Origin: Salinisphaera sp.
Lineage (GTDB): Bacteria > Pseudomonadota > Gammaproteobacteria > Nevskiales > Salinisphaeraceae
NCBI GenBank assembly: GCA_027858915.1
Contig: JAQIBT010000033.1
Location: forward strand, 1-64,000
Reading direction: 5' to 3'
DNA: 64,000 nt
This document shows, piece by piece, positions 18,735 through 21,770 of this stretch (its first letter is position 1; each line of letters starts with the position of its first letter). The notes below the pieces were generated by a model. The model worked only from the letters and a program-made list of their open reading frames with translations, had not been told where the DNA came from and did no database searches. The translations under genes and the position numbers were made by a program.

Positions 18735-19439
18735 TCATCCTTTGTCAGAATCGCCGTCGACCCCTTTTCCCGGCACCACGGGCTCGACGAGCTGTGCCAG
18801 GCTCATGTTCAGATTGAATCGGTCGCTGTCGCCACCGCGCTGACCGCGCCGGATATCGTCTTCATCGATCTGGATCATCGCCAACCGTGCGATGCCCCCG
18901 CCGGGGCCTCCGGCCGGGCCAGACCAGACTCCAACCCGTGGCTGACCCGGCGCCAGACGTGACAGACCATCGGCGTACAGAGCCCGCAGTGCCCGTGGCA
19001 TCAACGCCTGGGCCCCGCCGTCCAGCGGCGCCGTACTCACCTGCAGGTCCAGCCAGCTGCGCCACCGACGCCTACCCAGCCTGGACATACGCTCGGAAGG
19101 CAGCCGCTCGATCAACTGACGCATCGCCATAACCGCCACGCGACTGCCCTGCCCGACCAGAGAAGGACGGTCGCGCTGGTCGTGCGCCAGCGCTGCTCGA
19201 TCGGCCGCATTCTCGGGTAGGGTCATACAACCGTCGACGTGGGCGCTCAGCCGCAACAGCTGGCCGTAGCCGCGCGGCACGCTGGACACCGCCAGTGTTG
19301 CGCTCAGCCACGGCCGACCGCCATAGGGATTGGGTAGCTGTAGACAGATACGCGTGCTGCGCGGACTGGCCTGGGAACGATCATCGCGCCGAAGCGGTCG
19401 GGCGAGCAGACCGACACGGCGTTTGACTGTGTCGAACAT
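18735..19439 (-). CDS. Hypothetical protein
   Basis: The reading frame of 234 codons reads MFDTVKRRVGLLARPLRRDD at the N-terminus and ends with an acidic, glycine-rich tail. There is no signal peptide or clear motif. An alternative ATG lies six codons upstream at 19457. It diverges from acylphosphatase, with 57 bases between the starts. I do not recognise the family; codon composition looks like that of its neighbours. It may be a true lineage-specific gene. Confidence 0.5.
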   Translation of the reverse strand: MFDTVKRRVGLLARPLRRDDRSQASPRSTRICLQLPNPYGGRPWLSATLAVSSVPRGYGQLLRLSAHVDGCMTLPENAADRAALAHDQRDRPSLVGQGSRVAVMAMRQLIERLPSERMSRLGRRRWRSWLDLQVSTAPLDGGAQALMPRALRALYADGLSRLAPGQPRVGVWSGPAGGPGGGIARLAMIQIDEDDIRRGQRGGDSDRFNLNMSLAQLVEPVVPGKGVDGDSDKG

Positions 19440-19496
19440 GGATTTTGCCTGCGGCATGTAGACTTGGAGGCAAGTATAACGCCGTGGTTTTCAATC

Positions 19497-19769
19497 ATGC
19501 CGGAAGCAAAGCAATACCGTATCGGCGGTCGTGTCCAGGGGGTGGGCTTTCGTGCCGCCACCTGTGACAAGGCGCGCGAGCTGGGGATGGCCGGATGGGT
19601 TCGCAACCGACGTGATGGCACCGTAGAGGTGATGGCGACCGGCTCTGAATCGGCGCTTCGAACACTGCGGGACTGGCTTGGGCATGGTCCCCGACACGCC
19701 CGGGTCGATACGGTCTCCGTAGAATGCGTGAACAGCGGCGACCTCACTACGCCGTTTTCCATACGCTGA
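19497..19769 (+). CDS. acyP: Acylphosphatase
   Basis: The 90-residue enzyme hydrolyses the carboxyl-phosphate bond of acyl phosphates. Both signature motifs are present: GRVQGVGFRA with the phosphate-binding Arg19, and GWVRNRRDGTVEV with the catalytic Asn37. The length is standard. The ATG at 19497 is used because the fold begins right after it. It ends at 19769, facing the candidate small RNA on the other strand. Confidence 0.95.
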   Translation: MPEAKQYRIGGRVQGVGFRAATCDKARELGMAGWVRNRRDGTVEVMATGSESALRTLRDWLGHGPRHARVDTVSVECVNSGDLTTPFSIR

Positions 19770-19785
19770 CAAGCTTGGCGTGAAC

Positions 19786-19808
19786 AGGGCGCCTGTTGCT
19801 CGTTTCAT
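19786..19808 (+). repeat. Dispersed repeat copy (diverged)
   Basis: AGGGCGCCTGTTGCTCGTTTCAT matches the consensus AGGGCCTGTTGCCGTTTCAT apart from two short insertions. It is followed by ATGACGCCGCGC, as in other copies. It lies 16 bases after the acylphosphatase stop. Confidence 0.7.
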
Positions 19809-19842
19809 ATGACGCCGCGCGGACCGTGCAGAACGTCGGCCA

Positions 19843-20020
19843 ACAAAAAGAGGCCCAGGTCGGGAGGGCGTCCGACCCGGGCCAGCAAAATGATGCCGCC
19901 AAGGGGTAGGCGACATCTACTAACGCAGCGCCTCGACTCGGGTAGGATGCGCTACGTTGGGCAGATCCGGTGAAGGGGGAACACCGTTTCTGCCAGCAAA
20001 GGGATTGCCCCGTTGCCTTG
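19843..20020 (-). ncRNA. Candidate structured small RNA with C-rich loops
   Basis: The minus strand has a promoter ending near 20027, then three hairpins and an intrinsic terminator. Hairpin 1 uses 19960-19972 with 19982-19994, loop UUCCCCCUU. Hairpin 2 uses 19922-19931 with 19949-19958, a 17-base loop with CCUACCC. Hairpin 3 uses 19892-19900 with 19909-19917, loop UACCCCUU. The terminator uses 19852-19863 with 19872-19883, followed by UCUUUUUG. Hairpins 2 and 3 and the terminator each have one irregular pair that is A-C on the plus strand but G-U on the minus strand, which points to a minus-strand RNA. No convincing protein is encoded. C-rich loops could pair with Shine-Dalgarno regions. Target genes are unknown. 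Confidence 0.65.
19852..19883 (-). terminator. Intrinsic terminator of candidate small RNA
   Basis: A 12-bp stem with one G-U pair and an 8-base loop is followed on the minus strand by TCTTTTTG (plus-strand A-run at 19845-19849). On the plus strand no T-run follows, so it acts on leftward transcription. Confidence 0.75.
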
Positions 20021-20026
20021 AGCGTT

Positions 20027-20055
20027 AATATAGGCAAAAAGTCGTAGAGTTTCTA
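20027..20055 (-). promoter_or_regulatory. Predicted sigma-70 promoter of the candidate small RNA
   Basis: On the minus strand TAGAAA (20055-20050) and TATATT (20032-20027) are separated by 17 bases. The expected start is near 20020, just upstream of the first hairpin. Confidence 0.55.
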
Positions 20056-20076
20056 ATTAAATCTCTATTTCCTGCT

Positions 20077-20093
20077 TATAGTGCTGCACTATA
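20077..20093. promoter_or_regulatory. Palindromic operator-like site upstream of prfC
   Basis: TATAGTG-CTG-CACTATA is a perfect palindrome with 7-base arms. It lies just before a good rightward -10 candidate TATTAT (20098-20103) and about 60 bases upstream of the predicted leftward small-RNA start. It could serve either divergent promoter. No matching regulator was identified. Confidence 0.5.
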
Positions 20094-20156
20094 CAGCTAT
20101 TATTTCGAGCATAGACAGTCACCTATCCTAATACGGTCGCCTTGCCGGAGCCTTTG

Positions 20157-21770
20157 ATGAATCAGCCCCTAGCCGAATCCCAGACCCTAACAGCGCAGGA
20201 GGCAGCCAGAAGACGTACGTTCGCGATCATTTCGCATCCGGACGCCGGCAAGACGACGCTTACCGAAAAACTGCTGCTATTCGGCGGTGCGATTCAGCTG
20301 GCGGGTACCGTCAAGGGCCGCAAGGCCACCCGGCACGCCACGTCCGACTGGATGGCGATGGAGCAGTCGCGCGGCATTTCCGTCACCACCTCGGTGATGC
20401 AGTTTCCGTATAACGAGCGCATCGTCAATCTGCTCGACACACCGGGCCACGAAGACTTCTCGGAAGATACCTACCGTACGTTGACGGCCGTAGACTCGGC
20501 GTTGATGGTGATCGACATCGCGCGCGGCGTCGAACCTCGCACGATCAAGCTGATGGAAGTCTGTCGGCTGCGTACCACGCCTATCTTCACCTTCATCAAC
20601 AAGATGGACCGTGAAGGTCGGCCGCCCCTGGAAGTCCTCGATGAGATTGAGGAAGTCCTCGGCATTGTCTGTGCGCCGATCACCTGGCCGATCGGTATGG
20701 GCAGCCAGTTCAAGGGCGTCTATCACCTGCTCGAGGACAAGGTGCACCTGTACGAAGGCACCGATAATGAAGCCGGTGGCAAGACCGTCACTCTGGACGG
20801 GCTGGATGATCCTCGCCTGAAGGAGATCGCCGGCCACTACTACAACGACCTGCTGGAAGAGATCGAACTGGTGCGCGGCGCCGGCGATGGCTTCGATCTG
20901 GAAATGTATCTGGCCGGCGAGATCACGCCTGTATTCTTCGGTTCGGCGGTCAACAACTTCGGCATTCGGCCGTTGCTGGATGCTTTCGTGGAATGGGCCC
21001 CGGGCCCGCAGCCACGCAACACCACATCGCGCGAGGTGCAGCCCGCCGAGGAGTCGCTGTCCGGCTTTGTTTTCAAGATCCAGGCCAATATGGATCCGCA
21101 GCATCGCGACCGCATTGCCTTTATGCGCGTGTGCTCGGGCCACTACGAAAAAGGCATGAAGATGCAGCATCTGCGGGCAGGCAAGGAGATCCGCATCAAC
21201 GATGCCATCACCTTCATGGCAAACCGGCGCGAAGCCGCCGAACACGCCTGGCCAGGCGACATCATCGGTATCCACAATCACGGCACCATTGCGATCGGCG
21301 ATTGTTTCTCGCAAGGCGAGGATCTGGCTTTTACCGGGATCCCGAACTTCGCCCCGGAGCTGTTTCAGCGCGTGGTACTGCGCGATCCGCTCAAGGCCAA
21401 GTCGCTGCACAAGGGCCTCGACCAGCTCTGCGAAGAAGGCGCGACCCAGGTATTCCGACCGCTGCACAACAACGACGTCATCCTGGGCGCGGTCGGGGTG
21501 TTGCAGTTTGACGTAGTCGCAGAGCGCCTGCGCACCGAGTACAACGTCAACGCCGGTTTTGAATCGATTGCGGTGTTCACCGCGCGCTGGATCTACGGCG
21601 ATGAACGCGAGATCCGGCGCTTCCGCGATCGCATGGATACCGGTGTAGCCGAAGACCACGGCGGCGCCCTGGTTTATCTGGCGCCTTCACGCGTGAAGCT
21701 GCAGCTGACCGAAGAGCGCTGGCCCGAGATCACTTTTGCGGCGACCCGCGAGTACAACGTCGGCGCATGA
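20157..21770 (+). CDS. prfC: Peptide chain release factor 3
   Basis: The 537-residue GTPase recycles RF1 and RF2 from the ribosome after termination. G1 is [10 protein letters not shown] at 25-34, followed by the SRGISVT switch region, [14 protein letters not shown] (G3) and INKMDR (G4). The length equals that of known RF3 proteins (about 529). The ATG at 20157 is preferred to an upstream TTG because GGAG lies seven bases before it. It is preceded by a 387-bp gene-free region that holds the candidate small RNA and a palindromic site. Confidence 0.97.

Follow-up and report, generated by a model that had tools for sequence, protein, structure and literature searches.

A predicted small RNA with C-rich loops encoded divergently from prfC in Salinisphaera

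Background

The small RNA (sRNA) sX13 (RF02232) of Xanthomonadaceae is 115 nt long, consists of three stable hairpins with apical C-rich loops and is encoded downstream of polA. In the study describing its targets, 4C/5C loops and 4G motifs near target start codons are both needed for repression, the RNA acts without Hfq, and mutants of the C-loops are not rescued by matching mutations in the targets (PMC3771888), so that pairing is not fully proved even for sX13. The ar14 family (RF02344) of Alphaproteobacteria, which includes NfeR1, possesses three consecutive C-rich-loop hairpins at the 3' end; its members are described as carrying an identical CCUCCUCCC in the three loops, and NfeR1 as silencing ntrB at the translation start (PMC10746234). 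GsrN of Caulobacter and PmaR of Agrobacterium, also alphaproteobacterial, are reported to pair through a C-rich loop (PMC5869019, PMC6234868) and are mainly activating on the targets described.

Here we analyse an intergenic region within a 64,000-nt window, the whole stretch of DNA under study, from the 4.3-Mb genome of one species of Salinisphaera. A first-pass annotation of the window had proposed an undescribed sRNA with C-rich loops on the minus strand, divergent from prfC. An open-access text search found no papers on an sRNA of Salinisphaera, and at gathering score none of 4227 Rfam families matches anywhere in the window, in agreement with the proposed novelty.

Structure of the RNA gene

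The gene occupies positions 19845-20020 on the minus strand (about 175 nt) and is predicted to form five hairpins. Three hairpins and a terminator had been annotated; all are present at their place, but the 5' hairpin (20017-19995) had been left out. This hairpin 1 (19995-20017) has a loop that is not C-rich. Hairpin 2 (19960-19994) carries the loop UUCCCCCUU at 19973-19981, hairpin 3 (19922-19958) the 17-nt loop AUCCUACCCGAGUCGAG at 19932-19948, and hairpin 4 (19892-19917) the loop UACCCCUU at 19901-19908. The gene ends in an intrinsic terminator (19845-19883) with a 12-bp stem, the loop ACGCCCUC (19864-19871) and a U-run. The loops, including the CCUACCC of the 17-base loop, read exactly as first annotated; direct reading likewise returns the single G-U pair noted in each of three stems (those of the 17-base loop, of UACCCCUU and of the terminator), every one of them A-C on the plus strand. 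A scan of 19500-20400 yields three terminator-like sites (0.7 expected), among them the 12-bp terminator (19883-19852); the second is hairpin 4, the third hairpin of the earlier description.

The divergent neighbour, on the plus strand, is prfC, encoding peptide chain release factor 3 (20157-21770; NCBIfam equivalog NF001964, 858.8 bits for 20142-21770). Downstream of the sRNA terminator lies a convergent acylphosphatase gene (19497-19769, plus strand), matched by NCBIfam acylphosphatase models at E about 5e-25, below their curated cut-offs. A 240-aa reading frame at window positions 18735-19457 (minus strand) has no NCBIfam or Pfam match; relatives with 43-54% identity occur beside the acylphosphatase gene in the Salinisphaera loci examined.

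The minus strand folds with a minimum free energy of -90.2 kcal/mol (z -6.46), and none of 200 shuffles is as good. The antisense fold has a z of -2.90, with 2 of 200 shuffles as good; it also beats its shuffles because it is the complement of paired DNA. When each of 16 homologues is compared with its own shuffles (40 per strand), the sense strand scores better in every one, with z-values of -5.3 to -10.0 against -0.7 to -6.6 for the antisense. The homologues have no reading frame in common: the longest complete frames range from 0 to 40 codons, and seven of the 16 contain no complete frame within the RNA.

Covariation and strand

Across 12 distinct rows of the alignment, 16 of 47 pairs have changed on both sides, and 96.3% of 564 cells remain paired. 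Shuffles average 9.0 such double changes and 0 of 500 reach 16, while structures slid by 1-3 columns give 1-5. The double changes fall in hairpin 1 (3 of 8 pairs), hairpin 3 (4 of 7), hairpin 4 (7 of 10) and the terminator (2 of 12), whose stem is paired in 99.3% of cells. Hairpin 2 has none, since its inner stem never varies in the genus. Judged by these changes, four of the five hairpins are under selection for pairing in Salinisphaera. The first-pass annotation had held that its G-U/A-C pattern fixes the strand, and this extends to the relatives: the 13 distinct Salinisphaera rows aligned to the model contain 63 G-U cells and 7 A-C cells. G-U is thus far above A-C, and the minus strand is therefore taken as the transcript. 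A check for loss of stems in relatives that keep the DNA brought nothing against the RNA.

Three other origins were considered and rejected: chance hairpins on the fold z-scores and the double compensatory changes, a coding origin on the lack of a frame shared among homologues, and transcription of the plus strand on the G-U/A-C counts and the fold scores. Taken together, the comparative data mark the minus-strand locus almost certainly as a functional RNA gene.

Distribution among relatives

With blastn, 12 of the 13 other Salinisphaera genomes give a match to the RNA, whereas 47 further genomes give none. A covariance model built from 13 sequences (R1) matches the window copy with 165.6 bits, a score to be read with that sequence being part of the model. 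R1 detects the RNA in all 14 Salinisphaera genomes, including G003 (E 2.9e-28), which blastn missed. It also finds the same locus in two of three other genomes of the family, belonging to a second genus (G014, E 3.9e-11; G016, E 3.5e-12). The third, G015, has no credible copy but a weak match (E 0.003), which shares a contig with prfC at a distance of about 96 kb. prfC is divergent in 15 of the 16 homologue loci; in the remaining one (G010) the contig ends before prfC. The acylphosphatase gene is downstream in all 16, adjoining the terminator in ten and lying 0.8-0.9 kb further away in G002, G004, G006, G008, G011 and G012.

Wider searches add little. In 85 genomes of the order, R1 returns the same 16 loci plus one weak match (G020, E 0.0024). 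In 369 genomes of the class it returns the three Salinisphaera genomes included and eight weak matches elsewhere (E 4.8e-8 to 0.08), none of which has PrfC in the flanks of up to 1.5 kb on either side. Six of these eight were inspected and look like ordinary terminators or unrelated structures. The weak family-level matches L033-L046, nine of 14 inspected, are mostly gene ends with terminators, and one contains a tRNA-like stretch. The best of the weak class-level matches, L047 (G129:C217:13516-13643; E 4.8e-8), is from another gammaproteobacterium and has one C-rich-loop hairpin followed by a terminator, with no PrfC in the 2.1-kb locus. A plasmid search for the RNA gave no match. In the 700 bases before prfC, at least two C-loop hairpins on the divergent strand occur in none of 40 named loci outside Salinisphaera, one of which offered just 177 bases. 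Among 16 family and order loci outside the two genera, a single one (L170) has at least two such hairpins, with loops that are not alike. The genomes searched thus yielded no convincing copy outside Salinisphaera, G014 and G016. It is very likely that the sRNA gene is real, has not been described before and is retained throughout the Salinisphaera genomes examined.

Conservation of the loops

Within the genus, loop 2 has a column identity of 0.94 and the terminator loop one of 0.93, compared with 0.87 in the stems. Taken over its whole width, loop 3 (0.81) or loop 4 (0.85) does not exceed the stems, and only the C cores are more conserved: the core CCCGA of loop 3 is invariant in the genus, as is CCCC in loop 4, where most genomes have CCCCC. 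Hairpins 2 and 4 of G014 and G016 have stems of different sequence, and yet their loops are still UUCCCCCUU-like and ACCCCCU, respectively. Neither loop 3, which has lost CCCGA there, nor the terminator loop remains C-rich in these two genomes. The retention of loops 2 and 4 on rewritten stems is the behaviour of putative pairing or binding seeds.

Likeness to known RNA families

In a lax Rfam search the minus strand matches ar14 (33.3 bits, E 5.5e-5), sX13 (25.0 bits, E 0.0038), ar7 (22.8 bits, E 0.0068) and, weakly, three other families, while the plus strand has no match at E up to 1. The earlier lead to C-rich RNAs of Xanthomonas is borne out by the sX13 and ar14 matches. All of these remain below the family cut-offs, and the prfC-side RNA is therefore not filed in those families. 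The ar14 model exceeds its cut-off in none of 61 genomes; at E up to 0.1 and with stricter filters it matches the prfC-side RNA in 3 of 14 Salinisphaera genomes. An Rfam search of L030-L032 gives nothing at E up to 1, and the copies in G003, G014 and G016 are therefore without such family likeness at that search size.

The prfC-side RNA resembles sX13 in having stable hairpins with apical C-rich loops. Such loops cap four of its five hairpins, but the hairpins are more numerous and the loop sequences are not those of sX13. It differs from sX13 further in length (about 175 nt), in the four C-rich loops being non-identical, in its place between prfC and the acylphosphatase gene, in the window as in the relatives, and in a score of half the gathering value of 50. 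With ar14, its best sub-threshold match, it shares three consecutive C-rich-loop hairpins at the 3' end. It differs in having two further hairpins, in belonging to another bacterial class, in falling short of the gathering score of 58.8, and in its loops UUCCCCCUU, AUCCUACCCGAGUCGAG, UACCCCUU and ACGCCCUC, which lack CCUCCUCCC. The likeness to GsrN and PmaR is one of description.

6S RNA is one long interrupted stem. In agreement with the first-pass annotation, 6S is rejected here, given five separate hairpins and no 6S match at gathering score or at E up to 1. CsrB/RsmZ-type decoys repeat in their loops a conserved GGA, the motif of CsrA; a decoy of this type is likewise rejected, as GGA is not conserved in the loops and no Rfam family of such decoys matches. 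The C-runs of the prfC-side RNA are conserved in loops, predicted to be unpaired, on covarying stems, as in sRNAs of the C-rich-loop kind. By these comparisons the prfC-side RNA is a new RNA family of a kind already known.

C-rich-loop sRNAs beside polA

The ar14 search led to a second C-rich-loop RNA, located beside polA. A covariance model for it (R2) detects three to six strong, closely spaced copies in every Salinisphaera genome of the 14 except G010 (81% complete), which has none; G014, G015 and G016 have a single strong copy apiece. Examples are G000:C76:5750-6614 (L343, 551-1415), L342 in G007 and L344 in G001. Around the best copy, polA is no more than about 1.5 kb away in all 13 of these Salinisphaera genomes as well as in G015 and G016; on the opposite flank, the GTPase gene engB is present in 12 of the 13, and also in G014, G015 and G016. 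The polA-side sRNAs are about 115 nt long and have three hairpins with a terminator at the end. Among 15 copies from three genomes, the loops are UUCUCCCU (14 of 15), UCCCCCAA-like and CUCCCCC-like, and 10 of 26 pairs are doubly changed. Below the Rfam cut-offs, the copies match anti-hemB (best E 7e-7), sX13 (best E 7e-5) and CcsR1 (E 0.003).

Both RNAs carry C-rich loops on hairpins and end in a terminator, and R2 weakly matches the prfC-side RNA in G004 (E 4.6e-5) and in G011 and G012 (E 0.003), the likeness of the stems being known from this model match alone. The polA-side sRNAs differ from the prfC-side RNA in locus, length, number of hairpins and copy number. Since a separate C-rich-loop set sits by polA, the prfC-side RNA is an additional RNA and not the polA-side counterpart of sX13. 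Within the same order, L140 (G022, 1501-1606) and L144 (G047, 1501-1597) are three-hairpin C-rich-loop RNAs with terminators, found with ar14 below its cut-off; neither polA nor engB occurs within these loci.

Candidate targets

The first-pass annotation had suggested a prediction of targets with AAGGGG-type leaders. In the genome of the window, AAGGGGGN4-9ATG occurs 14 times against 2 for the reversed pattern. Five of these 14 sites precede a frame of at least 60 aa, one of the five being, by eye, inside a ribosomal-protein gene. The shorter AGGGGGN4-9ATG is likewise in excess over its reversal in G000 (54/12), G007 (74/20) and G002 (61/19), an excess that is not telling, because it is expected of any Shine-Dalgarno-like run. 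We examined 137 of these 189 sites (G002 61/61, G007 71/74, G000 5/54), leaving out three G007 sites at a contig end that look like repeats of the first three; 77 of the 137 precede a frame of at least 60 aa. Pfam matches nine of ten frames, chosen by hand and thus no measure of enrichment: two ABC-transporter membrane proteins, DctP, a sodium:alanine symporter, a pilin, a flagellar rod protein, MTHFR, biotin carboxylase and PurE.

Between G002 and G007, purE is the sole clear orthologue pair among the examined sites, next to one local match of 31 residues, and the 14 AAGGGGG sites of the window's own genome match nothing in the lists of these two genomes. The gene lists barely overlap between species, so no conserved regulon is seen. 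The purE leader (L351-L363) contains, a short way ahead of the start codon, GGGGG in 11 and GGGG in two of the 13 Salinisphaera genomes with the gene. Outside the genus, GGGG is present in G015 and G016, with no such run in G014. As G015 lacks the prfC-side RNA, the G run found there and in G016 need not depend on it. purE is a candidate target, which could equally belong to the polA-side sRNAs.

Proposed function and alternatives

We propose that the prfC-side RNA is probably a trans-acting repressor of the C-rich-loop type: a free-standing sRNA, similar to sX13 and ar14, with its own promoter region. Its presumed seeds would be loops 2 and 4 (CCCCCU or CCCCU), loop 3 (CUACCC) and the terminator loop (GCCCUCCC). 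These would pair with G-rich stretches at or near the ribosome-binding sites of several mRNAs, and pairing would mostly block translation. The C-rich loops may thus switch off messages with G-rich ribosome-binding sites.

The sign of regulation could be the opposite, with C-rich loops pairing to G-rich leaders or coding parts and mainly stabilising or opening the mRNAs. The sequence says nothing on sign, and precedents exist: GsrN is reported to use its C-rich loop and a leader G-tract to activate katG (PMC5869019), PmaR, whose targets include ampC, to raise most of its targets by way of a C-rich loop and mostly at a distance from start codons (PMC6234868), and sX13 to raise some mRNAs, e.g. 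hrpX (PMC3771888). We nevertheless consider mainly positive control unlikely, as the tested direct targets described for sX13 and NfeR1, members of the closest sub-threshold families, are repressed (PMC3771888, PMC10746234).

Alternatively, the repeated C-rich loops could titrate a protein or another RNA with no pairing to mRNA. An RNA with several similar loops on a single stable scaffold looks like a titration RNA, and CrfA of Caulobacter, first taken for an mRNA-pairing sRNA, is described as a sponge of four sibling sRNAs (PMC12559287). Such a decoy role is improbable for the prfC-side RNA: GGA is not kept in its loops (at the terminator loop, GG is followed by A, C or T), and the polA-side siblings are also C-rich-looped, so that its C-rich loops could not pair with theirs.

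Promoter region and palindrome

A scan of 19500-20400 yields a single promoter-like site (0.4 expected), which is the promoter annotated for the sRNA, TAGAAA-17-TATATT (20055-20027). Its -10 box TATATT (20027-20032, minus strand) holds up, with TATANT in 14 of 14 Salinisphaera genomes; the proposed -35 hexamer TAGAAA (20050-20055, minus strand) is weak and not conserved in relatives. Immediately upstream of the -35 position, a CAATT-like block is conserved.

Between the sRNA and prfC lies a perfect 17-bp palindrome (20077-20093), part of an operator-like site, TGTATAGTGCAGCACTATA (20077-20095, minus strand), centred at about -65 from the expected start. Its consensus TGTATAGTRCANNNCTAT has exactly one exact match per genome in 13 of 14 Salinisphaera genomes, always at this locus; in the 14th, G010, the contig is cut. 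Other places yield 16 matches, with one or two mismatches, and the reversed control yields 30. The same pattern finds no palindrome in G014 or G016. All 13 genomes showing the region have the centre 53 bp from the -10 box, and its distance to a codon mark in prfC is 125 in eight and 113 in four of the 12 genomes measured. A centre near -65 would fit an activator site, and a DNA-binding dimer at the palindrome probably turns on transcription of the sRNA. That palindrome and promoter instead control prfC, the leftward RNA being a by-product, is very improbable: prfC is divergent in all 15 loci where the contig reaches it, but the palindrome keeps a fixed distance to the -10 box of the RNA and not to the prfC mark, the RNA stems are selected, and the 40 other named prfC loci are devoid of comparable hairpin sets.

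Implications

The prfC-side RNA adds an undescribed, genus-wide sRNA family for which a covariance model is ready. Together with the polA-side copies, it shows that the Salinisphaera genomes have sRNAs with C-rich loops, a kind described in Xanthomonadaceae and alphaproteobacteria, at two loci that are unrelated. Two loci in one genus make it testable why G-rich ribosome-binding sites attract regulators with C-rich loops. A more tentative and rather doubtful extension is a system of two branches, with three to six siblings on the polA side and the prfC-side RNA, with its four non-identical C-rich loops, under a palindrome whose exact consensus occurs nowhere else in the genomes. In such a system one dedicated regulator could set the translation of an entire class of mRNAs with G-rich leaders. 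If this were true, the RNAs with C-rich loops in alpha-, beta- and gammaproteobacteria would represent a single recurrent solution whose copy number can expand.
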